Made by a program: the position numbers and the translations under genes. A stretch of DNA of 64,000 nucleotides from Terfezia claveryi. Its lineage: Eukaryota > Ascomycota > Pezizomycetes > Pezizales > Pezizaceae. The stretch lies in the NCBI GenBank assembly GCA_015179025.1, contig WHUX01000017.1, positions 62,001-126,000 of the forward strand. The letters run 5' to 3'. The stretch's first letter is position 1; each line of letters begins with the position of its first letter. Below, one piece after another: positions 8,411 through 58,480 of this stretch. Below the pieces are notes generated by a model that saw only the letters and a program-made list of their open reading frames with translations, did no database searches and was not told the origin of the DNA.

Positions 8411-9025
8411 TGATATTATTGAAAAGCACATGGGTTATACATATCCAACATATCCACTTGCAGCAATCCACATACGTAACTAGAGCATTAGTCTGGTTGC
8501 ACTACCCCTCGCAGAGGTATACCCCACTTTATATGAAGCCTCGTACGTTATGAAGTCTCACAAGCAGTACCTGCTTGCTACTGCGTTATACCTCTTCATA
8601 TATATATAGTGTGTTGGGAAATCACCCTTCTAGAGGGTAGACGAGTATATAGACATATAGCTGCACACATATACATTCGCACATATTCTCACGTATACTT
8701 ATCCGCATATATTACTCGCACATACGTGATACGCATGTACACTCATTCACATACACCACACATACCTTACGTATATACCTTACATACGTATCTCAGGTTA
8801 AGTGGACCTTCGTTGGCCATTCATCTATCCAACCATTGCTAGTATTGCTACCCATAACCTCGTTATTTCAACAGACAATAACTTAATGGAAATAACAATT
8901 GACCTACTGCAACAAGAAAAGAGAAAGAAAAAAAGGGAATGCTGCAAAAGCAAAACACAATAAGCAACTAAACTAACGTTTTTATCTTCTTGCGGCAAGA
9001 ACCTATTTCAAAACAAGACAATGCT
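8411..9025. other. Intergenic; one short TAGTCTGG repeat copy, otherwise featureless
   Basis: Contains a copy of the short dispersed repeat at 8489 (TAGTCTGGTTGCACTACCCC) and an A/C/T-rich stretch with CACATA-like words at 8660-8790. No gene or RNA is recognised. Confidence 0.5.
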
Positions 9026-9502
9026 TTAAAAAGGAATTATAAAATTCTCAGCTTTTTTATGAATTACAAGAATAGCAAGTTCCTGAGGGTAATTGCTAAC
9101 TAAATTTTTAGTTTTCTCATCAGTGTTTGAAGAAAACTCCATAGCAACACTCATATCATAATAGATTCTTCCTCCATTATTGTTTTCCCCACCAAAGAAC
9201 ACTAGATAAGCAGTCATATAACTTCCACTCTTGTTCTCTAAAAAGCCACTTGAAAAGTTCGAATATTCTCCAACTTGATTTGTATCAGCATTCTTTAAGT
9301 TTTCAAGCTTAGTTCTAGTGTCTGACTTTTTTCCATAAGCTTCAATCCAGTTATCGATAACATTGTTATGCTGGGTAGAGGTGAATCTAGAATGGGATAG
9401 CAATCCTTGGTAGTAGATTTTGCCTTCGTTTAGTCCTGATTGTAACTTTTTTATGATTTCTCCGCTTGCTTCAAGGCTTAGAGTAATACTTCTATTACTC
9501 AT
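9026..9502 (-). CDS. Intronless hypothetical protein, 158 aa, orphan
   Basis: An uninterrupted 158-residue frame with an ATG start. It has no cysteine, no signal peptide and no membrane segment, and is rich in Asn, Ser, Lys and Glu. The middle carries SYMTAYLVFFGGENNNG and GRIYYDMSVAMEF, which suggest beta strands of a small soluble protein. I do not recognise the family. It is intronless and AT-rich, unlike the spliced genes from 42 kb onward, and sits alone between the chromovirus and MITEs. It could be a lineage-specific gene or a transferred gene. The intact frame in a decayed neighbourhood argues that it is real. Confidence 0.6.
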   Translation of the reverse strand: MSNRSITLSLEASGEIIKKLQSGLNEGKIYYQGLLSHSRFTSTQHNNVIDNWIEAYGKKSDTRTKLENLKNADTNQVGEYSNFSSGFLENKSGSYMTAYLVFFGGENNNGGRIYYDMSVAMEFSSNTDEKTKNLVSNYPQELAILVIHKKAENFIIPF

Positions 9503-9962
9503 TGCTAAAAAATAATTAGTAAAGATCTACAAAAGAGTGTTTCTCTTACTTACTTCGAGATTGAAATTAGAAAGAAAAACAAGAGAAGGTGAAAAGAGGT
9601 CCAGGGACTAGTAGAGAATTTCTATTAGCCAGAAAACAAAAATGAATGCAATACTAAAAACTCACAAAACGCTGTGCTCTGTTGTGGAGTTTGCAAAAGA
9701 AGAGCAAATTTCGCAACAGAGAAAGCGACTGGTGAAAAGGTAGAAGACGCAATGGCAGGCAGTTTGCGCTTTTATTAAAAATACTCTCAAGTGAAGGGTG
9801 TGAATCTTTTGTTTCCGCGGAACAGCATTATAATTGCATTTCTTTTGCTTATAACCCTAGTCTATGAAAAAGCAAAAAAAAAAGATGATATCTATTTTAT
9901 TTGACGAGCTATTTTTGCTATCTATTGCGTAACTTCTTTTGTGTTTATGCCGCCAGAATCGT

Positions 9963-10020
9963 CTACGTAGAGCTCAAGTTATTGGCTAGCGTAATTTCAA
10001 TATGAGCTGCATATGCGGGT
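9963..10020. mobile_element. Single-ended fragment of the GCTAGCG MITE family
   Basis: Carries ACGTAGAGCTCAAGTTATT, then GGCTAGCGTAATTTCAA and TATGAGCTGCATATGCGG. This matches one terminal arm of the elements at 21333-21556 and 40860-40973. No opposite arm is seen nearby. Confidence 0.6.
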
Positions 10021-10233
10021 TTAAGGATATCATCTGACAATGCCCGTGCTCAGGGTTATATGAACGTCGGAGATTGAAATGTACTGTAATTATCCATAAT
10101 GCCATCAAGGAAGCCTCTACAAGTGCTGTCCCTGAATATAGCTGCAAATGGACTCCAGGCGGTTTCTGGAAGCAGATCTCCTGCACTGGTCCAAAACCGC
10201 AACTCGGTTTGGGCCTAAATCAAAGTCATATTA

Positions 10234-10752
10234 CAGTATACTCTCGATATAAGAATATCGTCCGGCGGGGGGGGGGGGGTAATACTCTTATATCAAATAT
10301 ATTCTTATATCAAAGGTCAGGGTAACTACTAAAGGTGTACATCAAAAAAGAGAATTAACGTGTAGTAGAGGATGGTATAGGAGGACTAGGAACAGCCTTG
10401 GATGAAGTGAAGAAGGCGGTAACTCGCCATGTGAGATCAGGATGTGCATTTGCATAGTCATATATCTGCTTGCGTTCTTCTGTCCACCCTTGACGTTTCA
10501 ATGTACCAGTAGCCGGCATATAGAATTAGCTCGGGAGTTCGGAGGTGGTATTGTAGGTGTAGTAGTATTGTGTGTCACGGTGTTGTTTTTGGCTGCGTTG
10601 TGTGCCTCGGTGAAGCATTGTTGTTGTACCCAAATCAGGTACTCTTGCTATAAGAATGCCTTAGTAAACAACCACGAAAAAATAAGAATATTCTTCTATA
10701 ATATATATTCTTATTTTGTATGGGGGGATATTCTTATATCGAGAGTATACTG
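10234..10752. mobile_element. MITE with 26-bp perfect terminal inverted repeats, TA target
   Basis: Positions 10234-10259 (starting CAGTATACTCTCGATATAAG) are the exact inverse of 10727-10752. A TA lies directly outside each end (10232-10233 and 10753-10754), the target duplication of Tc1/mariner/pogo elements. The minus strand inside encodes GWTEERKQIYDYANAHPDL near 10440-10500, which resembles the N-terminal DNA-binding part of pogo/Fot1 transposases. I read it as an internally deleted pogo-type transposon. A run of about 13 G occurs at 10265. Confidence 0.85.
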
Positions 10753-10961
10753 TAGCTCAAAGAGTCTTCCAGCACCGTCCCGGCCCAGTAAAGCGAGTTT
10801 ATAATTCACCACCTGATCTTCTGTGACTTCACTAAAACATATCTTACATGACTTCAAAGATTCAATAGTGTTTACTTTACCCATTGAATAGATCTTGGCA
10901 CTCAAATTGATATGTTTCACATAAGCCCGGGCTTATGATCAACGTGTCCCACACATATGTA

Positions 10962-11045
10962 TACAGTCAACCCTTGCTATAACGGACGGCAAAAATCCAG
11001 AGCTTTCTGTCCGGTATAGCAAGGGTTCCGCTATAGGAGGCAACC
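10962..11045. mobile_element. Single terminal fragment of a pogo-like element
   Basis: Reads TA-CAGTCAACCCTTGCTATAACGG, then CCGGTATAGCAAGGGTTCCGC. This resembles the terminal repeat (CACTCAAACCTTGCTATACCG) of the element at 56873-57726. No matching second end is found nearby. Confidence 0.55.
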
Positions 11046-11138
11046 GCCCCAGTTAAATTACCCACCAAACACTGTCCTCTTGTGATAAACAACACTGGCA
11101 AAGTTGGAGAGAAGGGTTTTACGGGTACTTATGTTCTT

Positions 11139-12511
11139 TCATTTTTATTTTTTTATTTTTTTTAAATACTTGTTACTCCTATGCGGCCCCGTCAAGGGGG
11201 CCATGAGGAGCCACCTAGAAACCCAGTTGGATTCAAGGGTAAGGCAAGTTAATCTGCCAGTCATTTATACTGATGAGGCGAGGCCCCATGCTGTCATTAA
11301 CGGACGAACCGATGACCCGAAGGCCTGTCTGGACCTCGGCCTGATTGGAACGACCTGAACAAAACCTGTGAAACTTGGACTAGAAAACGTTGAAACTTGA
11401 ACTAATGAAAAGTGTGAAGAAAAGATGAAATGGCTTGTTAGGGAATAAAACAAAAGGAACTCGTGATAACGACCTGAGACAAAGGGAACTCGTGATAACT
11501 GTTTGCGGAGTGAGCTGGCTAGGTGAGCTCATGGTATAATAACTTGAAGAAGGCCTCTGTGGCCTCAAAGATCTCTTCTCCTTCCTTTCTCCATGTCGAG
11601 CTCTATCTAACTGCGTTTTTCCCCCAGTAGGGATCTCCTGAAGTGGTCGAAGCGAGGGCAGTCAAAAGTGATGTGATCTCCTGTCTCCGAAAAGTGTCCG
11701 CATGTGTAGTTCCCAGATTCGCCTTGCCGATGTGGTAGTGCCAGCCCTGTTTGTCCGCAGCCAGGTATAAGCGGATAGGGCGTGGCGGCCCCATTCTACC
11801 CTCCTGATTCCGTACCCCGCCTTACACCTAGCCTCCTTGCGAACTGCCTTAGAGGAAGCACGAAGCCCTCCTTCCGTTGCTCTGTGTGTGTCACCCCCCA
11901 ACACTCCCAGATGGGACTGGAAGTTGGCGATGCGGTCTGCCTTCTCATTGCCCTCAATGCTGATGTGACCTCTGACCCAAGAGAGCCTGAAATCCCTAGT
12001 ATGTGAGTGTCTTAGTAGGAGGGACTTGATATTTCTCTCGATGCCTGACCGTGGGGGGGAGCCTGCACTCATGTTACGGATGGACTGGATTGCTGCTCGT
12101 GAGTCTGACAAGATGCTGATTGTCCGAGTCTAGTCTTGTTGCACTACCCCTCCACAGACTAAGTCCGAATCCTCGTTTTCAATGGCTAGGCACATCACCT
12201 CAAGTTCGCCATCTGTGACCGTAGCTTTATTGCCAAGGTGCGTAAGTAGAGGCACTTCCTCCCTTCCAATCCTCGCTGGCTACCTCTCCCCCTCTGCCTG
12301 TGCCGTCAGTGTAGCATACTCTCCAGCCTTCCTCGAGAATGGAGCCTATCTCCGCAGCCCAAAACCCTAGGTGCTTGGATTTTTCCGATTGAGGGTCGAA
12401 GATTTTCTCATGGATGATAGGAAAAGATGCCGTGTTATCCCGATCGCCGAAGATAGATCTTCCGGGTCTGCTGCAGTTTGGTAAATGGCTTCCGATATAG
12501 CGGTCCTGTGG
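11139..12511 (-). mobile_element. 5'-truncated Tad-like LINE with poly-A tail
   Basis: On the minus strand the copy encodes the end of a LINE ORF2 with RNase H (CYTDGTGRGGEV near 12330, ILSDSRAAIQSIRN near 12110, WVRGHISIEGNEKADRIANF, then a terminal region with LHMRTLFGDRRSHHF). It ends in a 3' UTR and an A-rich tail (T/A run at 11141-11167 on the plus strand). A 10-bp direct repeat TTATGTTCTT sits at 11129-11138 and 12512-12521, exactly outside the tail and the truncated 5' end, and is read as the target duplication. Frameshifts and a short insertion at 12131 disable it. The 3' UTR start near the tail is shared with the copy at 15962. Confidence 0.8.
12131..12162 (+). repeat. Ultrashort TAGTCT insertion, 32 bp, inside the LINE
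   Basis: Begins TAGTCTTGTTGCACTACCCC and ends CACAGACTAA. It is flanked by GTCCGAGTC (12122-12130) and GTCCGAATC (12163-12171), a 9-bp direct repeat with one mismatch. It lies in the RNase H region of the LINE, so it inserted after that LINE. Confidence 0.8.
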
Positions 12512-12521
12512 TTATGTTCTT

Positions 12522-13285
12522 CAACGCTGCTACTGGGAGATAAGGCATTAATTTCGTCGTGATATGTGAAGGGAAAACTATCTCAGCTGTACCATATATT
12601 GTGCAACCAGAGTAATATTGTGCATGAGCGCTTATTTACCACTATGTATCCTCCAGAATCCTGTTTTGGGCACGAGAACATCGATCCTAATAATAGAATA
12701 GAAAGACCGACTCGTTAATTTATTTTTCTGTATATATATATCCCTTTAACCTTGTCCAAAAACGTAATATTTTAGTCGTCATATAGGTTAGTCTCGTGCC
12801 CATATAGGTAGGTACTAGGCTATTGATTAGTCTGGTTAATTGGTATAGTCCCTCCCTAGGAGCGGTCGGGTTCGAGACTAGGTATAGTCCACAGCTCAAG
12901 AATATTGAACATAATCATATTTTTTTTTCTATTTTTTCTCAAAGGTCTAGTAACCAGCGATCACCCTAAGCTCATGACCGGGACTTTTACATTTAGAGAT
13001 TGGAAGGATGATTTAAATCATCTGTATATTTACCTTGAAAAGGATGCTACATGGGCGGATATATTTTTTTTTCCTTTTCTACTGGTTAAGCGATGTACCA
13101 GTTCAATTTGAAAAGTCAATACATATATTCGAGGTAGATACACATATATATTTAAGAATTGTAGGCTTTTTTAAAAAAAAATCTCATATATCTGTAACTT
13201 AAACGGAGTATCCTCTACAGAATTGCATCTGAGCCAACCTCCTGTATTCTGTATAAGAAAGTTTCAAGTAACTATCACAAATCAA
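12522..13285. other. Intergenic with a degenerate tRNA-like stretch
   Basis: At 12828 a TAGTCTGGTTAATTGG segment followed at about 12875 by GGTTCGAGACTAGG looks like A-box and B-box words, but the stems do not pair well. A TAGTCTCGTGCCC word also occurs at 12789. The rest is AT-rich with no recognised gene. Confidence 0.4.
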
Positions 13286-13386
13286 GGTGAGATGGCCGAG
13301 TTGGTTATGGCGCCAGGTTAAGGAACACCCCTTAGCATTACATCCTGGTAGGGAAACCTGCGTGGGTTCAAGTCCCACTCTCATCA
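13286..13386 (+). tRNA. tRNA-Leu(AAG) with a 19-nt intron
   Basis: The acceptor stem GGTGAGA (13286-13292) pairs with TCTCATC (13379-13385), with one G-T pair. The D arm is GCC..GGC. The anticodon stem CCAGG/CCTGG (13313-13317 and 13344-13348) encloses TT-AAG-G, then a 19-nt intron (13324-13342) at the canonical position one base after the anticodon. There is a long class II variable arm, as expected for Leu, and a T arm GTGGG-TTCAAGT-CCCAC. A T run follows. All stems were checked by hand. Confidence 0.93.
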
Positions 13387-13391
13387 CTAAC

Positions 13392-13402
13392 TTTTTTTTT
13401 TT
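13392..13402 (+). terminator. Pol III oligo-T terminator of tRNA-Leu
   Basis: A run of eleven T begins six bases after the tRNA discriminator base. Confidence 0.85.
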
Positions 13403-13777
13403 CCCTACACCCACCCCATTTTGGAACGTAATACTTGCTCATGAACTAGTCTGGTTGCATAAATCTCCTATTCTCCATTGTTACCCGACACACTGATGTT
13501 CCATCCTGGCATATTCCCGCTCGCGATGGCAAAGCTACATTTCTGCGGAATGCTTCCTTGCGCGGTATCTAGGTTTTTCTAGACCTTGATTGTGACAGCT
13601 ACGTATGTAATCAATAAAAATCTTATTCCTCGACTATCTCCCACGTCCTTCCATATGTCGATTGCAGGCATCAAAGTGAGAAATGCTTTCCCCGAATAGC
13701 CCAAAGTACATCAGATATCGTCATCAAACATCACAGTTCTTTTAACAAAGGAAAGATTATTGGGCGTTCTTGAGACA

Positions 13778-15435
13778 CTAATAAGTGCTTGTAGTCGCCC
13801 AAAGGCTTGCAGAAGCCGGGACTGGTCTTTCCCTGATACTGTTTTCATCACGTTTCTCTCCAACATGTTCAGGCTTCTCCGCGGGGCAGCTTTTGACGAT
13901 ATGACCAGTTTGTTTGCATCTGGCACAATAAGGCTTGGTACCGTCCATGATGAAGCCAGCCTCCTCAAGGCGTGCCAAATTTTCCTCAGCGCTTGTAGCA
14001 ATAAGAGCACCAACCAATCCACTGCGCTTAGGTTTGGCACCAAACTGAAACTTCACAACGTATTTTTGATCTGGTTTCCCTTGAAGGTTTACAATTGTCT
14101 TGTTTCCAAACGTTTGGGTTTCCTGTATCCTTGTCAGCCAAGTAGTTACAGCAGCCATGCCATATAAGTACTGCATGCATACCATAGCAATGAGGTGGAC
14201 CCGGAAGCGATTGTTGTCACACCTGAAGCCCTCCTCCATATCCCGGAAAGTAACGTCAGGCAAAGCGCGGGAATATTCCATCATATGCTTTGAAAGTTAG
14301 ACGGTTTTGGAGTCAACAAAACGGAATAAGATTAATCATTATACCTCCTTGAAGTCTTCCAAGTCTCCATTCATATCTGCTTCTATCATCTTGGCCCAAG
14401 ATTGATCCGCGGGGATGATGGGTTCACCCTCTCGAGCATGGTGAATCTTTCTGGGTTCGGCACAGACTGAAACAGTATGACCTTGGCCACGTTAGCCATA
14501 AATGAGGGCAACCGGGGTAGTGGGCTGTACCTTCTTGTCCGCAGCTTCGGCAGATTAGGGGGGGCCTATCGGGGCACTCGGAAGCAGGGTGGCCCTCCTT
14601 GGAGCACACTCTGCAAGTTCCTTTGAATACCTTTGGCTGGGGACAGTCCTTACTTCCGTGTCTATACCCTAGTTGTAAGTATCTACTCTAAGCTAAGAAT
14701 ATCATGTCAAGGGTCTCTTACCCAATCTCATTACAATTGTAACAAGTCATCTCCGGCTTGTCAGGGCATTCAGAAACATGGTGGCCCTCCACAGCACAGT
14801 GTCTGCATGTCCCATTGAAGAATCTGGGATTTGGACAATCCGCCTTACTGTGCCTACATCAGGGTGAGCATTCCTGAAAAGCATCACATTGAGAAAGAAG
14901 CTTACCCCTCCTCACCACAATTGAAACATGGCATCTTGGGCTTGTCAGGGCAATCATTACCATGATGCCCCTCCACACCACAGTGGCGACAGTGTCCTCG
15001 AAACTTTTTTGGGTTAACACAGTCTGCCTTGTTGTGTCTGGCATTGTTTGTCAGAAGTTTGTTGGATGCAATGATGTGGCAAGTTTTGTAAATACTCACC
15101 CCTGCTCTCCACAATTGAAGCAAACCTGGGGCTCAGGACAGTTCTTCGCAAAATGGCCTGGCTTCTTGCATCTGTAACTGGATTAGCTGAAGCCTAAAGA
15201 ATGTGGCAAGCAAACTTGAGACCTCGACTCACCGACGACACCCATCCTCCTGAACGGGCCTAGTATCTAGAGTTTCAAAACCGAAGTCTCCAGAGCCATC
15301 AAATACTTGATCACTGTCGATAACGGAGTCCCCGGCATTACCCCAATCTTCGCCATCATTGGCTGCCTGGAGTGGCAGAGAATTGCTCATAGCGGATGTA
15401 TCCCATGCATCTCCAGAATAACTGTCCCAAGACAT
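13778..15435 (-). CDS. CnjB-like zinc-knuckle (CCHC) nucleic-acid-binding protein, 418 aa
   Basis: Eight exons: 15435-15233, 15171-15100, 15037-14906, 14853-14722, 14661-14531, 14481-14345, 14287-14183, 14122-13778. Every junction has GT-AG ends and keeps frame. The N-terminus is acidic and Trp/Gly-rich (MSWDSYSGDAWDTS). Eight CX2CX4HX4C knuckles follow, for example CRRCKKPGHFAKNC and CRHCGVEGHHGNDC. Then comes the helical region typical of fungal CnjB (EDFKE..MEYSRALPDVTFRDMEEGF..HLIAM) and a ninth knuckle CARCKQTGHIVKSC. Such proteins bind single-stranded nucleic acid; the exact role is unknown. As I recall the family, other fungal members carry further C-terminal knuckles; this copy stops early at SLWATTSTY. 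Confidence 0.88.
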
Positions 15436-15618
15436 CTTGATTGCTTGAATGAATAATAGATAGAGGGTTTTAAGAAGGTTTGCTGGCAGACGAAGGGAGG
15501 AGATGGTAGGGGTGCTGCTGTTGGTGGAGCAGAAAGCAAGGAGAGATGCTTCAAATCCTAGTGCAGCTTGCCTTAGTAATATTTTCCTAGTTTGGTTGGC
15601 ACAAAAGATCTCCCGGCT

Positions 15619-15653
15619 TAGTCTGGTTGGCACCTCCCGGTAGTCTCGGCACC
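15619..15653 (+). repeat. Ultrashort TAGTCTGG insertion with perfect 9-bp direct repeats
   Basis: Begins TAGTCTGGTTGGCACCTCCC and ends CTCGGCACC. The 9 bases CTCCCGGCT occur directly before it (15610-15618) and directly after it (15654-15662). Inside is a second partial target word (CTCCCGG) followed by TAGTCTCGGCACC, as if a second copy landed in or beside the first. Confidence 0.85.
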
Positions 15654-15733
15654 CTCCCGGCTCCTACAGGTGAAGCCGATAGGGAAGTCGAGACTACTAG
15701 TACGGTAATCGAGACTAATTATATCGCTGGTTG

Positions 15734-15770
15734 TAGTCTGGTTGCACAGTCCCGAGCCCTAACCAGACTA
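15734..15770. repeat. Head-to-head pair of TAGTCTGG repeats
   Basis: TAGTCTGGTTGCAC at 15734 faces AACCAGACTA ending at 15770. The reverse copy (15759-15770) is flanked by GTCCCGAGCC (15749-15758) and GTCCCAAGCC (15771-15780), ten bases with one mismatch. Confidence 0.65.
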
Positions 15771-15961
15771 GTCCCAAGCCAGGCTGTGAACACCAGAGGA
15801 ACAGACAACTACCAGGTATCCTAGTACCTAGACTTGCAACGGCCGCCGTTTAAGTATCTGACCTCACGTGGATCTGTCATCCAGCACGGCTATTTTAAAG
15901 GCGCAAATCCCTGGACAATGCTACTTGACTTCGTTTCAAAGGGCATTGACAGCGTTGAACC

Positions 15962-17920: not shown

Positions 17921-17931
17921 AGCGTTGAACC

Positions 17932-21330: not shown

Positions 21331-21332
21331 TA

Positions 21333-21556
21333 CCGTAGAGACGAGTTATTCGCTAGCGTAATTTTAATGTGAGCTGCATACCCGGTAGTGTGCCAATATA
21401 TATTCTTATGGCCAATCCTGGTGGCTACTGTGTTGGAGAGGCAGATCGCATCCGTGCCAACCAGACTAATCCTTCTGGTGAAGTTCCTTAGTTAAGCTCA
21501 ACAGATAACACTCTTGCTATTGAAATCACGCTAGCGAGTAACTCGCGTCTCTACGG
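21333..21556. mobile_element. MITE, 224 bp, TIR CCGTAGAGAC, TA target
   Basis: The left end CCGTAGAGACGAGTTATTCG continues with CTAGCGTAATTTTAAT. The inverse of the right end reads CCGTAGAGACGCGAGTTACT, then CGCTAGCGTGATTTCAAT. TA flanks both sides (21331-21332 and 21557-21558). A reverse copy of the TAGTCTGGTTGGCAC repeat lies inside (21454-21468). No coding capacity. Confidence 0.85.
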
Positions 21557-21558
21557 TA

Positions 21559-22660: not shown

Positions 22661-22679
22661 ATATACTAATTACCGCAGC

Positions 22680-24438: not shown

Positions 24439-26459
24439 CAATTAAGGTTTCTGTATCCAAACAGTAACATATATTGAACTACTAGTATCAGATGAAGAGC
24501 TAGGTCTAGTATTGGAACCAAACCCCAAAGGAATAGTTAATATATCTACAACTATAGTAGAAGTAGTAAAGAAGACTATAGAGGATGAGAAAGAGCAACA
24601 GATGAATACTTATTTGGTGGCAATGGCAGATAAGAGAGGGTAAGAATCTGATAATAGAAAAGAGAAATTTGTCATATCTCCAGAATCCCTAAGCGCTCAC
24701 AACATATATATTGGATCTATATTTGGTAAGCTGTAACACAATGGTACCAAAAGCTATCGAAAGACAAGCGAAATTAGTAGCCCTAAAGTATAAGGCTGAC
24801 CTGAATATCATTGGAGTGATGGCTGGTATTAAATTACTTTACACTAATTTTAGAGATACTGAGAAAAAAGAGCTAGAATTAAAGTAAGAAAGGATAGATG
24901 ATATTGTCAATCAGATTAGCTCAAAGGCCAAGATGCAGTCCCAAACTCGAAAGTGGAAATCAGAAGAAGGTAGGGACCTGGAATATGTGGAATGAGAATT
25001 CGGGTCAGAAGATAAAAATATTATAGGGTGTAACCCTCTGTATACGTGCATATAGAAGTAATAACTACCTACGGAAAATAAAGTGCAGCAAAAAAAATAT
25101 GGAGAGGTTTAAAAAAAATCAGCCAAATAGTAAGTAAACATAACAACACAAACCGTTAAAGCAACTATAAACTGTACAACCACTCTTCCTCATGTATTAA
25201 TTTTCACTCCCGTAATTAAGCTACTTCCTCCTAACCATAGCCTTCTTCTTAGTAGCCTTCTCTGCTATGAGCCTGTTCTCAACCCTTCCCCCTATCTACC
25301 AGTATAATTGGAGATCTTCTCTTAAATGAGATGGGACAGGAAAGGATATATTCCAATATGTTACTTGTATAGATACTGACACCAACTATAAGACCTGCTA
25401 CAATTACACAAAGGCAGACAGTTATGATTAGTGAATTTCACCTATTTTGTAGCTATTAGCCAATTTTACTACCAGCTTAAACAGATGATCAAGGACATGA
25501 AGCTTTAAAATTAGGTTCAAATATCTAGAGTCGATAGGATATCAGAATATAAATATATGAAGAAACACTCATATTTTTAGATTGAGGCTTAAGTAGATCA
25601 TTATAGCAAAGAACTCTAAAATTAGAAGTACTATTATAGATAGTAGTATCAGACAAGAGTGAGAAGTTGAAAAAAGCAAAGTTGGAGGAGAAGAAGAAGG
25701 AGAAAAGAGTAGTAGTAGTATTGGGAGCTGATTTCCTAATTTAGTATCTTCTTTATAAGAATACTGAGCTATCTTGAGAGGTATGTTTTTAAAGAAAAGT
25801 GAAAACTACAGCTACAAAATATGAGAACATCTAGCAATTTATAGTTATAAGCCAGAGACTAGATCTCTTCAATAAAGCAATTAATATAAAGAACCTTAAT
25901 TAAGCTCTACCCTAACAACTTTTTCTATAGGAAAATAAGAATATATTATAATAGGAGACTTGCTAGAACTTGCTTGATAATTATTTATTATTGTCATAAT
26001 GGTATACTTAGTTGTTATTATTATTACTTATGATCATAGGTAATAGGTTATTACTATCCTGTTTGGCTCCCGAGATAGGGATCTCAGAAAGTTTATGCTT
26101 TCTATTGCCCTATCTCAAAATTATATATATATATTCCTTATCCTTCATACTATTCTTAGATTCCTATCTAATATCTTGTATACCTAATACAGGATCTTGC
26201 TTCTTCCAGTACTTATGCACCTCTCTTATATACTTCCTTGTCTCGTGAACAGCTCTACAACATAGCTGCCTCCTTCTGACATATGTAGCAACCACTTCTA
26301 TGTATCTCTTACTTCTTACTTTTGTTCTCCATTCTAGCCTTCCCCTAGTCATATATATAGTATTCTTACATATATATTACTATAGCCCTGCTTTTGCCCT
26401 GGTATACTCCTTAGTTACCTTACCCACTCCTGCACCCACGTTACACTATATTGGTTCTC
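24439..26459. other. AT-rich decayed repeat DNA
   Basis: A and T dominate and stops occur in all frames. Short coding-like islands (for example around 24740-24990) are too broken to assign. Probably the remains of the element whose gag lies upstream. Confidence 0.5.
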
Positions 26460-31596: not shown

Positions 31597-32872
31597 ATCA
31601 TCTAACTCACCCTAATCCTTATTCTCATCCCTATCCTTATCCTCGTCCTCCTCCTCGTCCTTATCCTTATCCTCCTCCTCATCCTTATCCTTGTCCTCCT
31701 CCTCATTTGAGCTGGAGTCCTGATAGTCCTTATCTTCTGTGTTCCCTGACAAAAGTCCTTTATTTAATATGGCCTTGACGGGCTTCTTCGGTCTTCATTC
31801 GTTTGAGTTGGCCTCAGTTAGTTGAGCTTCTTCTTCCGAAGAAACATCCAAAGCCTCCCATTTGCGCCATAGCCCTGTATCCTCATCATCATCTTCCTTG
31901 TTGGGTTTGACATCGGAGTCCTATCGAGTGGTGAAATTCTAGGATTTAGATCAAGCACAAGGAATGGCATGAGCCTACGAGGAATGCACTTACCTCTTCC
32001 ATGTCAGTCCTAACATCCTCATCACTTAAGCAATTGTCGGCACCATCTTTGGCTAATTTCTCCTGGTCAGCTATTGATAATGCCCCTTCGTGTGCTCTAG
32101 TCTTGTGTCTTACGTCACCTTTGATTGGTTCTTCAAATTTTGCATATGCATAGCAGTTTATGGGTACAACACTAATAACTACAGCGAACTGCTGTATATG
32201 CTGTACTCTAGCTAGTCTGGTTGGCACTACCCTGAGTCCCTGCACCTCTATTTTAGGCAAATCTCGACGAGGAATTTGCCAATTCGGAAGGTTTTTGTAG
32301 TAATTCAATTCTAGATACCTTCTCTTCTGCTCGTCTGACAGCTCATACCATTGGTATAGAATATAAGCCTTCTTGCGCTAGAATGTGTTCTCCCAAGTCC
32401 TTTGTATAAGTGTTTGTAATTTTCTGAATTCCTCATGCTTTAATATATATCTTGTAGTACCAATTGGCCTCCCAATGTGTGTAGCCTGGTGGAGATTTTG
32501 GATCCCACTCTTGAGATCTCTGTTGACCTTTTGCCACTTCCAATCCTTGACTCGCTCCCACGCCAAGGGGGGTCCAAGCAATTTCTGCTATTGTTCCCGA
32601 ATTTTCTTAGTATATGGATGTATAGAGAGCCCTATTGCCTTCCTCTCACCACTAAATTCTATATCCAGATTAAATTCTCATGGCCCCCAGTTAAAGTCAG
32701 CATACATGGCATATGGATTCCTTAAGGGTGGGGGGATAATTAGGGATTCTGCTCTGGTCTTTCTTGTCTTCGCTATGCCTATTGGCTTGGCTTTTTTCGG
32801 AATAGGTTCGGGTGATGAGCTGGGTTTGCACTTGATTGCTAATTCGGCTTGCGTTTTTCTTTTTGACAGCAT
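31597..32872 (-). pseudogene. Decayed gene with Lys-rich N-terminus and acidic tail, possibly HMG-box-like
   Basis: Starts MLSKRKTQAELAIKCK at 32872. Through several stops the frame continues with WERVKDWKWQKVNRDLKSG, HEEFRKLQTLIQRTWENTF and YQWYELSDEQKRRYLEL; the last resembles the second helix of an HMG box (W..LS.EEK..Y). A likely intron (donor GTAAGT at about 31994) joins DVRTDMEE to DSDVKPNKEDDDEDTGLWRK, ending in an EEEDKDKD repeat (31615-31710). A TAGTCTGG repeat sits inside at 32213. Similar in style to the neighbouring H3-like gene and in the same orientation. The family is uncertain. Confidence 0.45.
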
Positions 32873-32929
32873 TTTGGATACTTAAAGAATCTTCATTAGT
32901 GAATAGTCATTCCACTTCATGCTCCCCAA

Positions 32930-33210
32930 AACGACCTCTGTGACAGCCTCCCTAACAGGCTCTGTGATACACGACCTTGACTACATACCTCTTATGTAAC
33001 TTTATAGCAGGTTATGGAATTCATTAGTGAATACTTTCTTGCCAATTCAGGCTTCCCGACACGACCTCTGTAACAATGAACAACGACTTACACCTTGGTT
33101 AATCTTCATAGCCTATTATGTAGAAGAAGGTGTCTGTGATTCTTTGTTAGTGAATTGAGCTAACTTTCTGCATCAGGCTTTTCAATTCGGCCTTCGTGAC
33201 GACGTCCATA
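32930..33210 (-). repeat. Degenerate TGTCACAGA words (inverse)
   Basis: Scattered CTGTGACAG, TCTGTGATAC, CTGTAACAATG, TCTGTGATTC and TTCGTGACGAC words resemble the array cores in inverse orientation, irregularly spaced. Confidence 0.4.
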
Positions 33211-33544
33211 CCTAGTCTCGTAACTGACTTGTATAGGCATACTGTTGCTTATCGTACTATACATGTAAATATGTCCGATTCTCAGTGGAATGCTGACGAT
33301 TCAGTAAAGTGGAGATAAATGGAGGTTGACCAACAATACTGAGTTCATGCAAATAAAAGAATACATTCTTTGTATACAAGTAAACCTTGATGTGGTTAAC
33401 CAAACATGGACAGACGACTAGCATTATGATGATCATGCACCTTAAATTTCTTGCGAGGAGTATTGCAACCAAACTAATAAGTTCTTACTTGTTTTATGAA
33501 ATCCAACTACACTCAAGTCTACATATGAAAAAATAGTCCATGGT

Positions 33545-34064
33545 TTAACTAGTGACATTGAACGATATCGGGCCAAAATGAAAATGAGAAGAGCATGCCC
33601 CAATGTCAATAGTAAGATTCCCCCCCCTCCAGCGACCTCCTCGTCTCTCGTTCCTGCACCTGCCTTTGCCATCGCCTTTGTTTGCGAATCTTGCATCACT
33701 GGCGTGACCACTCTTTGGACTCTGTTGTCCTTGGATAATAGTCCAGCAGCAGGCAAAGAAACAGTCAACGGGAATTTTCTGGCTGCCGAGAAGGGGGGTG
33801 TCAAATGATGCGGGAAGTTGTTCAATTTGGGATTGTTCAAAGGGCGGGTAGGGGTTGCCTTGAGGTATGAAACAGAGGCTCCTCATTCTCTTTGTTAACC
33901 CCTGCCTCGGCATTGCTCTCTTGTACCTCCATGTTTAGTACGCCAAAAACCACCCTACCATCTCTGAATTGTTCTCCGTCCTTGAGGGTTCGCTCGGTAT
34001 TGCTGGCACCTCTAGCATCGGGTATCGTAGTTGATTTCGCACTCGGTATTGGTTTGATAATCAC
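33545..34064 (-). pseudogene. Coding-like fragment, unrecognised
   Basis: The minus strand gives IIKPIPSAKSTTIPDARG and continues through VFGVLNMEVQESNAEAG and NKENEEPLFHTSRQPLP. Near 33840 it shifts frame to FEQSQIEQLPASFDTPLLGS and ends in a Gly/Arg-rich stretch. Composition and hydrophilic character look like real coding, and an acceptor-like CTTTCAG precedes it at 34065. No family is recognised. It shares orientation with the two decayed genes downstream. Confidence 0.35.
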
Positions 34065-34676
34065 TGAAAGTTTGGATATAAAAAGGTTAGCTGCAAGCCG
34101 TAATAAGGCCTGTCAATTCACGTGTGAGTTATCACACAATACCGCTATGCCCTTTCCATTTCTCGCTCAGATCTGTTTCCAGCACAGCAAGTGTGGTTGC
34201 CTAGGCGCTTCAAACGTGAACCGCTACAAGGTAATAGGAAAATATGATCATTGTCATCTGTTCATTGGAACCACAGCATAGGACAAGCCCACATGGCTAT
34301 CGCACCTACTCAAATGACGCGGGATATGTATGCAACCTCATATGGGGCAAGCAAAAAAGTATGAGAAAGTCATACCTATTCGCTGAATATTCAGCCATTT
34401 GCCTACTACTCGAATTGTTCCGCATAATGTGTGGTGGATTAATAATGAAATGACAGGAGTAGGAGATGCAGATAATGGAGGACAGGAAGTAAATTCAGTG
34501 AGTACGAGGTGGGGACATGCATAATTTATCTGGCACTAGTAGACACTAGCCCAAGCTAATCCCAAACAACATCCCTAGTCAGTCCCTCGAACATAGGCAT
34601 GTGCTACATGTTTCGGAACTGTGACACTAACCTACCTGCATTGCCTCGACCTATACCTCAGAAAGTGATCAATGCC

Positions 34677-34705
34677 TAGTCTGGTTGGCACAAGCCTCAT
34701 AGAGA
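34677..34705 (+). repeat. Ultrashort TAGTCTGG insertion, 29 bp, perfect 9-bp direct repeats
   Basis: TAGTCTGGTTGGCACAAGCC then TCATAGAGA. ATCAATGCC is present directly before (34668-34676) and directly after (34706-34714). Confidence 0.88.
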
Positions 34706-35104
34706 ATCAATGCCATATAATTAATAGGTCGATGGGATGTCCCTAGCACTAGCTAGGTAAACTAACTCTTAACGTAATAGATGGGAATATGAGGTGGATA
34801 GGGTTGTGTGGTGCTTTAAACCTACATACTGTGCCAATGTAAACAGTGCTTTTCAACAACTAGTAAATATTCAACTGGTCAGATGAGCTTTCCATTATCG
34901 CTTTGTCGCGTTACTGTGTCTTGAGGTTAAAGCACGTCTTAACCCCATTCGCCTCGTTACCTCATCCATTACATGGGGATAGATTATGCCATCGACCCAT
35001 GGATAGACAGTACTATAATGGACCAAGTTGGAGGTCCTATGAACATCTGGCTGGAGTAGAGAAGGATGGTAGTTCCATTTAGTAGTAGCTTATGATATAC
35101 TTAT

Positions 35105-38780: not shown

Positions 38781-38819
38781 ATGAATTCAATCTGTGTATC
38801 CTATTTTGACCTATGTGAT

Positions 38820-38931: not shown

Positions 38932-38949
38932 ACAAACAGAAAACCAATT

Positions 38950-40973: not shown

Positions 40974-41005
40974 TACTATAATAGGGACCCCTGTCGTCGA
41001 GCTTG

Positions 41006-44278: not shown

Positions 44279-45223
<945 letters not shown>

Positions 45224-49162: not shown

Positions 49163-49603
49163 GCTAGGTGTCAGTCGATGTATGCTTGGTTTCTGGCATG
49201 GCATATCTCCTCCTTTTGTGAAATATTGGCTGGGAGTGTTGGTGATGATTGTTAGAATACTAATAATTAGAACTTCCTCTGTATAGAGTTCTTGGGCTGC
49301 AATACTCTTTATGATACATCGCGTGTGACCCGAGCAAGCCCATGCCTGAAATTATTGCCATGCCTGAAATTATTGTAATGAACGGCATCCTACTCTCCCC
49401 AAAATGGAAAAGGAAAGGCGTAACTGAATCGGAAAGAATGACGCTCGATGATGTGTGAACAAACATGGTACTAATACAACTCCAAGATCCAAAGCATATT
49501 ATTATAGACCAGTTTTACCCTGACATATTTGTCTTGATAGGATAGTAATTTCGGCTCGCACCTCTCCAAGGCGTTCGAGTCAATATCGAGACAAAAAATA
49601 AGA
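49163..49603. other. Convergent intergenic region
   Basis: 3' flanks of the chromodomain gene and mitochondrial clpX; a short direct repeat (ATGCCTGAAATTATTG) occurs twice near 49342-49376. Confidence 0.6.
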
Positions 49604-52832: not shown

Positions 52833-55657
52833 ATGACTGTCACTACTAACCCCAGCACTAACGGCACTTCAGCCGTCACAGACTCCATGGACACTGCCAT
52901 CATTGCTAAGAAAGAACATGAACAACGGAAACTTGAGTCTCTCCTCTCGAAATCAGACGCCCTAGAGATGAGCCAGAATTCGGAGAACAATTTGGACTCT
53001 GTTCCAAGTAATGACACCATTCCAGACGATGGAACTGGCGTAGTCCATCTAGACCCATGGCTTGGACCATGGAAAGATGAGATCCGCCACAGATATAACG
53101 TTGCAAAAGGTTGGATTGACAAATTCAACAAATGCGAGGGAGGATTGGACCAATTCTCCAAGGTATGCTCCTCCATATATACAGGTTCCAACTAGAGCCC
53201 TCACTGACAATTGCTTTTATCCTCAGAGCTACGAGAAATATGGTATCCATATGCAGCCAAACGGGGATATCGTATACCGCGAATGGGCTCCAAATGCCTT
53301 TACTGCAGCCCTAATTGGAGACTTTAGTAGGAAACCTCTTCTATCTCCTATATTACACATGCACTAACTGGTCCTGCATTAGACAATTGGAACAGAGAAT
53401 CCCATCACATGAAGAAGAACCCCTTCGGAGTTTGGGAGATTACGCTGCCTGCTGTACACGGCAAGCCTGCAATTCCCCATGAGTCTAAGATCAAGGTCAG
53501 AGAAATCAAATACCCACTCTGGAGATCATTTATCAACCAGTTTATGTTTAGATTTCCATGGTTGTGCCAAACGAAGGTCGTATCGAACGTCTTCCTGCAT
53601 GGATCGAACGGGTCACACAAGACCTCTCCGTGAGCCCCGTCTATGATGCCGTGTTTTGGAACCCACCCCAAAAATATATCTTTAAGCACCCCAAGCCACC
53701 GAAGCCCAAGTCTGCTCGTGTCTATGAAGCCCATGTTGGTATTAGCACACCTGAGTGCCGTGTCGGTACTTACAAGGAATTTACCGCGGGTGTTCTCCCA
53801 AGAATCAAGAAGCTCGGATACAACATCATTCAGTTAATGGCCATCCAGGAACATGCCTACTACGCTTCGTTTGGTTATCAGGTCACCAGCTTCTTTGCAG
53901 CGTCTAGCCGTTACGGCACACCTGAGGATCTCATGGAGCTGATAGATACTGCCCACGGTATGGGCATCACTGTTTTATTGGACATCGTTCACTCCCACGC
54001 ATGCAAGAACGTCCTTGACGGTATCAACATGTTCGATGGATCAGATCATTTATACTTCCACGAAGGTGGAAAGGGAAGGCATGATTTGTGGGATTCCAGG
54101 CTTTTCAATTATGGCCACCATGAAGTATTGCGTTTCCTTCTATCGAACTTGAGATACTACATGGATGTATATCAGTTTGATGGCTTCAGGTTTGATGGTG
54201 TGACAAGTATCTTGTATACTCACCACGGAATCGGAACGTAAGTGAAACAGAACTCACGAAACGCTGCACCTACTAATCTTATTAGTGGATTCTCCGGTGG
54301 TTATCATGAATACTTTGGCTCGAATGTTGATCAGGAAGGTCTCGTCTATTTGATGTTGGTAAGTATACGCCTTCCTAGCTAAAATCGCTTCGCTAATTGC
54401 CTAAGGCGAATGAAATGCTCCACACAATTTACCCCGAAGTCATCACTATCGCAGAGGACGTCTCTGGAATGCCTGCCCTTTGTCTTCCTCTCTCACTTGG
54501 AGGGGTGGGGTTCGACTACAGGCTTGCAATGGCAATCCCTGATATGTGGATTAAGATTCTGAAGGAGAAGAAAGACGATGATTGGGATTTGGCAAATATA
54601 TGTTTCACTTTGACGAATAGGAGGCATGGGGAGAAGACAATCGCTTATTGCGAGTCTCATGATCAAGCGTTCGTATTATTTGTACCCCTCTTGACCCCAA
54701 TCCGCTAACAGTGGTTGTAGTCTTGTTGGAGATAAGAGTATTATGATGTGGCTCTGTGACAAAGAGCTATATACACATATGTCTACGCTGACGGACCTCA
54801 CTCCAATCATTGAGAGAGGATTAGCATTGCATAAACTAATTCGATTGCTCACTCATGGTTTGGGTGGAGAGGGATACTTAAACTTTGAAGGTTAATTAGT
54901 AATTTCTTTCTTGCATGCAGTTTGAATTTTAACATGGATACAGGAAACGAGTTTGGACATCCTGAATGGCTTGATTTCCCCAGAGCTGGGAACGGAAATT
55001 CCTTCTGGTACGCAAGAAGGCAGTGGAATATTGTTGATGACGATCTCCTGAGATACAAATTCCTCAATGAGTTCGATGCTGCTATGCAGAATACTGAAGA
55101 GAAGTATGGGTGGCTAAATGCGCCCCAGGCGTACATCAGCCTGAAACACGAAGTATACATACATTCCACCCCCGCGATTGTGAAACCATCTAACATGTGC
55201 GCATCATGAAGGGTGACAAAGTTGTTGTATTCGAGCGAGCAGGGCTTCTCTGGATTTTCAACTTCCATCCCACAGTAAGGCAGTTGAAACCTCAAGAAAA
55301 GAGGACAGTATCTAATTATTGCACAGGAAAGCTTCGCAGATTACAGAGTTGGGGTTGACCAAGCTGGTGAATACCGGATAGTCCTCAATTCTGATAGGAA
55401 GGAGTTTGGAGGTCACGAGAGAATCGATGAGGGCACGAAATTTTTTACGACTCCCATGGGCTGGAACAACAGGGCGAACTTCACGCAAGTTTACAGTGAG
55501 TGAAAACCACTTAGAATGCTGAAGGCAAAAACAGCGACTGACTGCTCCTTTACAGTTCCATGCAGGACGGCAATTGTGAGAGATGTGTTCACGCCTGACC
55601 CCTCTGTTCAATGCTAACAACGATTCGCAGGTGCTTGCTCGCTCAGATGCCGCTTAA
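52833..55657 (+). CDS. GLC3: 1,4-alpha-glucan (glycogen) branching enzyme, 740 aa
   Basis: Twelve exons: 52833-53162, 53227-53326, 53383-53495, 53552-54237, 54286-54358, 54406-54668, 54721-54890, 54944-55152, 55212-55274, 55327-55495, 55556-55575, 55631-55657; all in frame. It transfers short glucan chains to make alpha-1,6 branches in cytosolic glycogen. An N-terminal CBM48-like part ([20 protein letters not shown]) leads into the GH13 barrel with [10 protein letters not shown] (region I), GFRFDGVTS with the Asp nucleophile (II), AEDVSGMP with the Glu acid/base (III) and ESHDQA (IV). NEFGHPEW and a C-terminal beta domain follow. An N-terminal extension of about 60 residues makes it slightly longer than usual. 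Confidence 0.95.
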
Positions 55658-56105
55658 ATAAGATATGTATCCGAAGGATCCACTCAGTAACGGTATTGCA
55701 TGTTTTATGGAATGTTCACAGATCTACTCGGCGAAACGCGTTTCATATATATATTCATGTCTTCCCTTTGTTTCTTGGTTGAAAATTGTTATCTGCGAGA
55801 ATTTTCTCTAGGAGAAATTTTCTTACTGGTGGTAGGTATTGCTTTGTCGGAAATATTATAGGAAGGGATCAAGGGTACGAGACTAGGGATCAAGGTTGGG
55901 ATGAAAATCGGAAAGGGCATAGGGGACGCAATGTGATTTAGTAATCAGGATTTTGCTGCGTGCAACAAGAAACAGCGCTAAACGTTCACATTCCAGAATT
56001 CTCATGTTTCGATCAGATATACTAGTCTGGTTGCGATCAGATAGGGCACATTGCAATAGGCAGTATAATCAAACTTGTTTATAGGGCGGGCCATAGAGTC
56101 CCATG
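55658..56105. other. 3' flank of GLC3
   Basis: No gene. Holds an ultrashort repeat copy at 56023. Confidence 0.5.
56023..56033 (+). repeat. Minimal TAGTCTGGTTG copy between direct repeats
   Basis: The ten bases CGATCAGATA occur at 56010-56019 and 56034-56043. TAGTCTGGTTG (11 bases) immediately precedes the second copy; three extra bases (TAC) separate it from the first. Confidence 0.65.
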
Positions 56106-56736
56106 TACCGGCAAACCTGGCTATAACGAATGCCAAGATTCCGACCCCTTTCCTTCGTTATGGTAGCCAGGTTAAGATGTCACGTGCCTACGAGGGGTAA
56201 GGAGATTTGTAGAGAAAAAAGATAGAATGTAGTCAATTTGCTTCTGCTCGATAATATTGGTCAATTCGGGTTCCTTTTACTTCTGCTCGATAATATTGCT
56301 CAATTTACGCTCGACAATTGGCTGCAACCATACTCTGACCTATCACTTTCTTAGTTTTTTATTAGAAGCTCTGCCTTTCTTTCTTGTCACTCTCATATTG
56401 TATTACATCTCGTATGTTCACTCTATCTTCCCTCTAGTTCCCTATTTTTGTCTATATATGTAGTTCCCTATTCCTGTATTCCTGTCTAGTGTAGTGTCGT
56501 CAAGAAGCCCTTTTGCTTCCATTTATTTTGTTAGCACACTACTAGTTTTACTATAGCCAATAAAGTTTTGCTATGTTTTAATTTATTAGCCACGGAATTC
56601 TCTTCACTATCGTTATACCGATTAATTTCACTATAGCCAGGGTACTTTAGCTGCGTGCAAGAATAGTCTAACAAATCCCTTCGGTACAGCCAGTTTTTCA
56701 GTACGTCGAGTTTCACTATAGCCAGGTTTGCCTGTA
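56106..56736. mobile_element. MITE, about 630 bp, TIR GCAAACCTGGCTATA, TA target
   Basis: GCAAACCTGGCTATA at 56111-56125 is the exact inverse of 56717-56731. With one mismatch the inverse match extends to a TA at each end (56106-56107 and 56735-56736). Internal sub-repeats CACTATAGCCA occur near 56547, 56627 and 56714. The right-hand TA is also the first two bases of a TAGTCTGGTTGGCAC repeat. Confidence 0.82.
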
Positions 56737-56812
56737 GTCTGGTTGGCACGGTTCCATGCACAAGTATGGGGGATAGGTAGATGGATGAGTGTTCGAGGTA
56801 TGTACCTCTAAG

Positions 56813-56830
56813 TAGTCTAGTTGGCACAAG
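56813..56830 (+). repeat. TAGTCTAGTTGGCACAAG copy, 18 bp
   Basis: Flanked by ACCTCTAAG (56804-56812) and AACTATAAG (56831-56839), seven of nine matching. Confidence 0.5.
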
Positions 56831-56872
56831 AACTATAAGAGAGTTAAATACTAGGTACCGGTAGGTTGGATA

Positions 56873-57726
56873 CACTCAAACCTTGCTATACCGCTGTAAT
56901 CTGTCCGGTATAGCTAATATCCGTTATAGGAAATAGCGTGGGGTCCGTTCTAGGCGGGGTAAAAGGATAGAAGTAGTGCTTCAGATATTGTTTACCTTAC
57001 CTATACAACCGTTCCCTTATCACCACCGGAACCAACTCTCAACAAGTAAATACTCGAGTTGAAAATTAGTTGAAGAGTATCTTGACTATAATGAAGATGG
57101 AGTGAATACTACTATGTTTAGATCTTGAGGACAGCGAGGAGGAAGATCTTGAGGACCTTTTTGCGCCACCTCCTATACCTCCAATTACAACTGCTCAAGC
57201 ACGCTCTCACCTTACTGAGCTTATTCGGCATTTGGAGGCTCTTACAGTTTCAGAACTTCCTGGAGGAAAGCCCCATCTTAATATCTTTGATGTTAGCTAT
57301 CATCTTGAACAAGCTCTTACTGGCAATATGCATGAGACACGTGTTCAGCGTCTTTATCACTGATTGGTTTTCACCGGTAGTATCCTCATTTCAACGTCTA
57401 TAAGTGTGGATTATGTTCTACTGTTTTGTTCTATAGCTGTTCCATTTCGTGGTTGCGCTATTTTGTATTCTTTTCTATGCTATTGTGCTGTTTTGAGGCC
57501 TTACTACTGTTACCATTCCGTTATAGCAATTACATTTACCTGTAATAACCCCTGTAACAATCCCTGTAACAATCCCTGTAACCCCTTACCAGCCCATCCG
57601 GTACGGTATCCGGTATAGCAAGTAGATGCCTCACCTAAATGGTTGAAAATGGAAAATTTTGACCTGAGCCGTCCGGTATACCAAGGGATCCGCTATAGCG
57701 AGGTCCGGTATAGCAAGGTTTGAGTG
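56873..57726 (+). mobile_element. Non-autonomous pogo-like element with 21-bp TIR
   Basis: CACTCAAACCTTGCTATACC at the left end is matched inversely at the right end; TA flanks both sides (56871-56872 and 57727-57728). The plus strand keeps the end of a transposase-like protein: VEEYLDYNEDGVNTTMF, then after a possible intron DLEDSEEEDLEDLFAPPPIP and a C-terminal helical part (LTELIRHLEALTVSELPGG) ending at a TGA near 57362. The catalytic core is missing. A CCCTGTAACAAT short tandem repeat lies at 57548-57590. Confidence 0.82.
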
Positions 57727-58285
57727 TAGTAGTCTGGCAGATTTCTGACTTCTGAAAATAGATACCGGGAAAACTGGCAAAGAAGAGGCCTTGTCGGTTT
57801 CTATTTACAACAAGTACTAATACTAATTCTATATAGATCTCGTGATTAGACAGGGATCTCTGCATCTGTGGCCTCCAGTGTACACTCAACCTCCTCATCA
57901 GAATCCAACGTACCAGTATAGTCTTCTCTCTGCCATGAGCCAACTGTAATATCTGGTAAACCACGCACATAAAGCTTTGTATCTTCGGTCCCATCCGGAG
58001 CTATTCTCGATTCAGGGAATTGACACTTCGAGGTTGTAGAGCAGTGGATTTATCCTTACTCCCTGTTCGAGTGGACTTTGTAGGTTGTTCTAGAGACGAG
58101 ACTTAAGTACTGGCGGTGCCTGTAGCTATAGGTGCCGACATTATTAGAATTGAACAATTAAACATTATTAATCCGATCAAGTCTATACCTAGATACATTT
58201 TCGTTTTCCTAACTTGTCAGTCGCTGGTTATGCATGGTGGCTGCAGATGCCTACAAGGCCGGTAGTTAGAGAGTGTGCCCGCCAG

Positions 58286-58345
58286 ACCTTGCTAGTGCAA
58301 GCCAGACTAAAGCCAACCAGACTAAGCCAGACTACCGCCAGACTA
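58286..58345 (-). repeat. Four TAGTCTGG units in tandem
   Basis: On the minus strand the units read TAGTCTGGCGG, TAGTCTGGCT, TAGTCTGGTTGGCTT and TAGTCTGGCTTGCACTAGC, one directly after another. Confidence 0.75.
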
Positions 58346-58365
58346 CAGCGAATGATACCTTTAGT

Positions 58366-58394
58366 TAGTCTGGCTTGCACTAGCCCCTCCACAG
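58366..58394 (+). repeat. TAGTCTGGCTTGCACTAGCC copy, 29 bp
   Basis: Flanked by ACCTTTAGT (58357-58365) and ACCTTTACC (58395-58403), seven of nine matching. Another short unit, TAGTCTAACCAGACTA, starts immediately after at 58404. Confidence 0.7.
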
Positions 58395-58444
58395 ACCTTT
58401 ACCTAGTCTAACCAGACTAACCTACTAACCTTAGGCATCATAGA

Positions 58445-58466
58445 GGGGCTTGTGCCAACCAGACTA
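58445..58466 (-). repeat. Ultrashort TAGTCTGG insertion, 22 bp, perfect 9-bp direct repeats
   Basis: On the minus strand TAGTCTGGTTGGCACAAGCC plus CC. CATCATAGA lies directly on both sides (58436-58444 and 58467-58475). Confidence 0.88.
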
Positions 58467-58480
58467 CATCATAGAAATCT

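Follow-up and report, generated by a model that had tools for sequence, protein, structure and literature searches.

Very short one-ended insertions flanked by 9-bp duplications in the genome of Terfezia claveryi

Very short, dispersed elements with two hairpins have been described from the mitochondria of Allomyces and Schizosaccharomyces and are thought to be mobile (PMC2800124, PMC10085805). An RNA route was proposed for the Allomyces elements, and flanking duplications were reported to be absent (PMC2800124). Yeast mitochondrial GC clusters of the GC42 family are palindromes of tens of base pairs, many with the same 13-nt end next to sequence that varies (PMC4478555). We describe here a family of insertions of similar size in the ascomycete Terfezia claveryi. 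The family was noticed in a 64,000-bp stretch (positions 62,001 to 126,000 of contig WHUX01000017.1, assembly GCA_015179025.1), the whole of which is called the window. Most units start at a fixed end containing the word TAGTCTGG and stop at a variable end, and many are bounded by an exact 9-bp target-site duplication (TSD).

The initial annotation had listed about 20 copies of this word in the window. There were indeed 20 exact TAGTCTGG words, where 2.27 were expected and no more than 6 occurred in 100 shuffles. Two of the listed sites (12131 and 56813) were the one-letter variants TAGTCTTG and TAGTCTAG and all others were exact; copies at 58419 (minus) and 62004 (plus) had been omitted. The genome-wide search that the annotation proposed covered 72.56 Mb in 794 contigs, the window being C79:62001-126000, and found a dispersed family larger than first reported. 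The 15-letter end TAGTCTGGTTGGCAC had 2,885 exact copies, 1,432 forward and 1,453 reverse, spread over many contigs, one of them of 1.1 Mb; the reversed-pattern control occurred 0 times in the whole assembly.

Duplications were scored in 314 kb, made up of the window and 25 fetched 10-kb stretches that had been picked for copies (20) or palindromes (5), never for repeats. The 9 bp preceding the word had to recur exactly 9-50 bp later, and flanks shuffled among copies served as the control. An exact 9-bp repeat bounded the insert at 49 of 158 TAGTCTGG words, compared to a mean of 0.46 and a maximum of 2 in 500 shuffles, so repeats exceeded shuffled flanks in the comparison suggested by the annotation. 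Words were counted on both strands, and a two-ended copy may therefore count twice. The result was alike for the window by itself (5 of 20; shuffled mean 0.37, maximum 2) and for the exact 15-mer in the 314 kb (27 of 72; shuffled mean 0.28). TAGTCTGG had the highest repeat fraction in a sample of 400 8-mers with 40-200 copies, of which it was one. The other 109 words lacked an exact 9-bp repeat and are attributed to decay, nesting or chance occurrence. The annotation had described direct repeats of about 9 bp at the conserved end; they were present there, and their length was sharply 9. Copies of TAGTCTGGTT in the first 264 kb had a repeat of at least 7 bp at 48 of 104 places, 27 of which were exactly 9 bp with approximately 0.7 expected. 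This is a duplication of constant length, as in miniature inverted-repeat transposable elements (MITEs). Repeats longer than 9 bp made up 10 of the 37 that were at least 9 bp, near the chance rate of about 25%, and microhomology is therefore not needed. No target preference was clear by eye.

Two further samples gave the same picture. A scan blind to sequence (repeats of at least 9 bp, gap 8-45 bp) found 216 repeats, and the commonest insert start was TAGTCT (38), followed by AGTCTG (8). The other sample, a second set, held 45 exact 15-mers from contigs C1 and C2, 44 of them new (L097 falls within L027); 12 had exact and 8 had one-mismatch 9-bp repeats. The word could also have been an internal piece of a long known repeat, but the 24 of 50 rows inspected for this had no long shared flank.

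Repeat-flanked copies were pooled into 155 distinct rows, with the repeat exact or carrying one mismatch within its first three letters. Of these, 106 were solo (78 with an exact repeat) and 9 composite; the other 40 came from 22 two-ended loci, where both strands were counted if both passed. The fixed end, the variable end and the 9-bp target duplications noted at the outset were all upheld. Solo lengths fell into two classes, with 51 rows at 8-18 bp (modes 15 and 10) and 45 at 22-36 bp, none at 19-21 or 37-45 bp, and 10 at 46-50 bp. Six of these last ten were two-ended by eye (L049, L057, L063), and four were odd (L022:5753, L026:5876, L026:6183 and window 42763). A range of about 11-35 bp had first been given for the inserts; the solo units end at 36 bp or less, except for the four odd longer rows. 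In the second set, lengths were 14-15 (9 copies) or 25-32 (11 copies, one two-ended).

The long class appears to end at a second boundary. A 28-letter pattern reaching through the distal loop (...AAGCCYCTCGTAG) had 185 genome copies, compared to 2 for its 35-letter extension beyond the hairpin foot (...GAGRGGCT), one of which lay within a full palindrome. These counts place a second boundary of that subfamily's unit near 33 nt, and an end at the distal hairpin's foot favors a discrete short template over a longer genomic donor. Only 1,616 of the 2,885 exact 15-mers continued with AA, indicating that a large share either ends at about 15 or comes from other subfamilies.

Read on the strand ending in AGACTA, long units consist of two adjacent hairpins and a tail; L025:3459, for example, reads TCTC-TAC-GAGA, then GGCTA-GTGC-TAGCC, then AGACTA. 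Stems of at least 4 bp were found in 39 of 49 proximal regions (shuffled 33%) and 25 of 49 distal regions (shuffled 24%), the 49 including the few long rows. Stems differed by subfamily, with GGCTA/TAGCC, GGCG/CGCC and GTCT/AGAC among the proximal and CTCT/AGAG, CCTCC/GGAGG and CCCG/CGGG among the distal ones. Two rare proximal arms paired better with their own partners than with those of other units: GGCT paired in 3 of 3 and 31 of 108 cases, respectively, and GTCT in 7 of 18 and 4 of 93.

Joined-flank queries (n = 78) were used to look for empty sites, and three cases were aligned in detail, yielding two clean empty sites and one ambiguous result (L013:6612). At L020:585, a 31-bp insert lay between two AAGGTATTC repeats, and a paralog in the window, 95.7% identical over 69 bp, carried one AAGGCATTC and no insert. 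At L014:9483/9468, a nested pair of 12 and 15 bp had an empty paralog that was 73% identical over 203 bp; the second unit had landed across the end of the first, and each had its own 9-bp duplication. Weak spanning matches were obtained for L012:5897 and L027:4322/4381. The insert at window 34677 was common to four other repeat copies that were 90-98% identical to the window over approximately 3 kb, which makes it old; no empty site was found for it, as the four close copies were occupied and four distant ones diverged there. The surrounding 3-kb repeat (window 32001-35000) has these four near-complete copies and many distant part-relatives. Taken together, these data indicate that the units are likely mobile and far smaller than ordinary transposons.

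The initial annotation had stated that only one end is conserved. This was true of most repeat-flanked rows, but the claim was too strong, as two-ended palindromes shared the 9-bp duplication. Perfect 15-bp arms spaced 0-30 bp apart occurred at 46 places in the assembly, and 19 of 37 freshly read palindromes (the 37 including the duplicated loci L037/L058 and L061/L067) were flanked on both sides by a 9-bp repeat that had no more than one mismatch. Two-ended palindromes with 9-bp duplications measured 23-54 bp, and L017:6186, L029:5236, L030:4876 and L033:4963 were further two-ended cases; in L053 and L060, the apparent palindrome was two successive solo insertions into one target. Inverted repeats at both ends, as expected of MITEs, were absent from most rows and present at 22 loci and at L049, L057 and L063. 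The shared interior of a MITE family was also lacking, since the interiors of the 46 palindromes were mostly private, with two recurring at different sites, suggesting that palindromes are made during the insertion event. A palindrome was considered as the master copy of the family and disfavored because only 2 copies (35-letter pattern), compared to 185 of the 28-letter pattern, ran on into the second arm. Two palindromic units each had the same flanking sequence on two contigs, one small and one large (C3:55146/C408:19091 and C615:10289/C773:224804); these pairs are either segmental duplications or unmerged assembly contigs.

Units were also clustered. Among 28 TAGTCT[GC]G sites in the window, 14 adjacent pairs were less than 150 bp apart, with 1.7 expected and a maximum of 7. 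Nested pile-ups were present at window 12131-15770 and 58288-58475 and at L016:3982-4104, L024:8323-8462, L025:4604-4821 and L026:5876-6241. Self-targeting or local insertion could possibly account for them.

The sequence-blind scan exposed a sister end, TAGTCTCG, that behaves like TAGTCTGG, with exact 9-bp repeats at 9 of 38 copies (shuffled mean 0.06). One long form of it had 63 exact genome copies. On the opposite strand, a variant of this end (window 12851-12880 and L030:7722) reads GGTCGGGTTCGAGACTA in the window copy, which by eye resembles a tRNA T-arm/B box. The interpretation first put forward was supported in part, and it had overlooked the palindromes, the two length classes with their limit at about 33-36 nt, the hairpins and the sister family.

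Searches were made for a longer parent and for an enzyme. Repeats of 9 bp located 100-5000 bp from the end were not clearly above chance: 4 were exact, where about 2.4 were expected, and 71 had one mismatch, where about 66 were expected. Inward sequence of 40-440 bp (93 copies; 24 of 50 between-locus rows) shared only short pieces of 20-84 bp, except for one 170-bp stretch. That stretch, identical at L024:905-1074 and L016:3771-3940 and with inverted ends TACCGTATTTTCTGG, is apparently a separate young MITE. The genome contained 21 matches to the transposase of Mutator-like elements (MULEs), one of which had a 575-aa open frame. The comparison with transposases covered this family and one of its 21 places. 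The place read, which holds the 575-aa frame, was a 5.5-kb stretch (C773:254001-259500, L034) in which TAGTCTGGTTGG occurred once per inverted arm, facing outward, and the element's ends lay beyond the stretch. Its long inverted repeats were composed of short repeated motifs. Neither the RNA parent nor the Mutator-like parent postulated in the annotation turned up, with one of the 21 MULE places read.

Endonuclease matches of long interspersed nuclear elements (LINEs) numbered 71. Three copies of one young LINE family, read approximately 3 kb downstream of the endonuclease match, had about 450 bp in common at 97.6-100% identity, followed by poly(A). This family (L127-L129, on C235, C780 and C223) includes four open frames of 1250 aa, of which one contains a stop, and was apparently active recently. 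A survey of reverse transcriptases, in which 150 of 2,308 candidates were scored, has no bearing on which enzyme acts.

A full duplication with one exact and one variable end suggests a staggered cut filled by a copy that has a fixed start and a variable stop. A discrete short template, either RNA or single-stranded DNA, is favored by the boundary near 33 nt, by stops that fall within a loop or directly behind it, and by the lack of donor flanks. We tentatively favor, with confidence just short of even, the view that the units are DNA copies of a double-hairpin RNA of about 33 nt, retroposed from its fixed 3' end (...GUGCCAACCAGACUA). A candidate enzyme would cut the target with a 9-nt stagger, and the 3' end of the cut would prime synthesis on the 3' end of the RNA. 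Synthesis would halt in the proximal loop (10-16 nt) or the distal loop (25-28 nt), or the template could already be broken there; alternatively, synthesis may reach the 5' end of the RNA (29-34 nt). Joining of the copy to the opposite side of the cut would involve no clear microhomology, and the full 9 bp would thereby be kept. Priming from both cut ends could yield a two-ended palindrome, for which the twin priming known from LINEs offers a parallel. Somewhat more guardedly, the units may represent a new class of one-ended nano-retroposons of no more than 36 bp, with an RNA of this size and shape as the mobile genome, 9-bp staggered cuts, and palindromes arising by double priming.

Several observations weigh against retroposition from a structured RNA. 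DDE transposases produce a constant 9-bp duplication more commonly than LINE-type retroposition does, and palindromes with 9-bp TSDs at both ends (19 of 37) resemble tiny terminal inverted repeat (TIR) elements. The one young LINE family read (3 copies) ends in poly(A), not in AGACTA. Regarding structure, the common arm GGTT showed no preference for its own partners, pairing with them in 49 of 83 cases and with those of others in 17 of 28. Proximal pairing was weak when pooled (61 of 111, compared to 53.5 shuffled), and 61 was reached within 1000 shuffles. Whole units folded only modestly below the energy of shuffled sequences (mean z -0.78, 36 sequences).

These data leave more than one scenario. 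Truncated retroposition and a tiny DNA element, both proposed at the outset, survive as the two leading models. For a DNA element, a DDE transposase with a 9-bp stagger, Mutator-like or other, would attach a tiny element to the target by one 3' end (CCAGACTA-3'), which we regard as a serious but rather doubtful possibility. Solo ends would then come from short repair synthesis inward from the joined end, with end joining closing the gap, and palindromes from the joining of both ends. Such an enzyme would explain why the TSD is constantly 9 bp and is found at the two-ended palindromes in the proportion given above, and the 21 MULE matches, with their single 575-aa open frame, are in keeping with it. 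It does not readily explain why 96 of 106 solo rows are 36 bp or shorter with donor flank absent by eye, or why the 46 palindromes have mostly private interiors when a MITE family would share one; distant 9-bp repeats (100-5000 bp) were also not clearly above chance.

A less probable explanation takes the units to be remnants of an ordinary TIR transposon or MITE, namely internal-deletion derivatives that later lost one end. The terminal sequence common to the copies and the existence of two-ended forms would agree with this, but if one end had been lost afterwards, dozens of copies would not retain a full 9-bp duplication placed exactly at a variable breakpoint. The length cut-off and the bimodality would also be unexpected, and no longer relative was found in 24 of 50 inward-sequence rows, save the separate 170-bp stretch. 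We consider this explanation unlikely. Adapters or a library transposase trapped in the assembly are very improbable and were rejected: Tn5 gives 9-bp duplications like those seen here, but the unit sequence differs from what we take to be the Tn5 mosaic end, the 34677 insertion is common to diverged repeat copies and hence old, and there are many subfamilies and decayed duplications.

Features of the window are listed in the table. The window also encodes an MFS transporter that is 100% identical, across 99% of its length, to a T. claveryi protein. With Rfam covariance models at the gathering threshold, the units in the window were unmatched, and the sole match was a tRNA gene at 13286-13386; at 101 bp it is probably intron-bearing, and it was not reported by ARAGORN.

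Table. Units and empty paralogous sites in the window, with window coordinates
Feature	Position	Strand	Flanking repeat or remark
29-bp solo unit	34677..34705	+	Exact TSD ATCAATGCC at 34668-34676 and 34706-34714
22-bp solo unit	58445..58466	-	TSD TCTATGATG
15-16-bp solo unit	58309..58324	-	TSD AGTCTGGCT; surrounded by other copies
47-bp composite, nested units	58288..58334	-	9-bp repeat GTCTGGCGG at borders
35-bp composite unit	15619..15653	+	TSD CTCCCGGCT
TAGTCTCGGCA unit inside composite 15619..15653	start 15641		Own repeat with one mismatch
Sister-family 12-bp unit TAGTCTCGTGCC	12789..12800	+	TSD CATATAGGT
Sister-family 30-bp unit	12851..12880	-	Distal hairpin CTCC-TAG-GGAG; TSD GACTATACC
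Sister-family 12-bp unit TAGTCTCGTACC	55874..55885	-	TSD CTTGATCCC
14-bp insert TAC+TAGTCTGGTTG	56020..56033	+	10-bp repeats CGATCAGATA; TAG set off from repeat
TAGTCTGGTTGCACTACCCCTCGCAGAGG-form copy	8489..8517	+	No TSD seen
Exact 15-mer	21454..21468	-	No 9-bp TSD
Exact 15-mer	32213..32227	+	No TSD; TAGTCTGGTTGG end also in repeat copies on C445, C512, C604 and C274
Exact 15-mer	56735..56749	+	No 9-bp TSD
Empty paralogous site for L020:585	10627..10695	-	Single AAGGCATTC, one letter from TSD AAGGTATTC
Empty paralogous site for L014:9483/9468	25712..25911	+	Single GAATACTGAG compared to GGATGCTGAG

Insertions of 10-36 bp are far below the element sizes sought by standard transposon annotation, and a whole layer of genome change could go uncounted at this scale. 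Units of this length would also be too short for fungal defenses that depend on repeat length, such as repeat-induced point mutation (RIP). The system gives a lower bound on mobile DNA and makes the minimal size of a selfish element testable. If the units are RNA-templated, large numbers of very short structured RNAs would have been copied into nuclear DNA. A limited literature search found no published description of the T. claveryi units.

Among nuclear elements, the units share the 9-bp TSD with MITEs and Mutator-like non-autonomous elements, as well as inverted termini in the two-ended palindromes; in contrast to those elements, most rows are single-ended, measure 10-36 bp and have mostly unshared interiors. 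Short interspersed nuclear elements (SINEs) and 5'-truncated retroposons likewise have a constant end, a variable truncated end and full target duplications. SINEs are longer, and the T. claveryi units differ from them in a TSD of constant 9 bp, a fixed end without poly(A) and a far shorter unit. Their 3' end is not shared by the one LINE family read.

The mitochondrial systems come closest in size and shape. Like many of the GC clusters, the T. claveryi units are tens of base pairs long with one constant end beside variable sequence; the GC clusters are mitochondrial and have AG or ACT flanks rather than 9 bp (PMC4478555). Like the mitochondrial double-hairpin elements, the units are very short and carry two adjacent small hairpins; stems exceeded shuffled levels in both regions, with weaker results in the folding and pairing tests. 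Unlike those organellar elements, the T. claveryi copies are on many contigs, one of more than 1 Mb, number in the thousands and have one fixed end and exact 9-bp TSDs, whereas the Allomyces elements are reported to lack flanking duplications (PMC2800124). None of the compared systems fits all the tested features, and on that ground we rate this kind of element as new.

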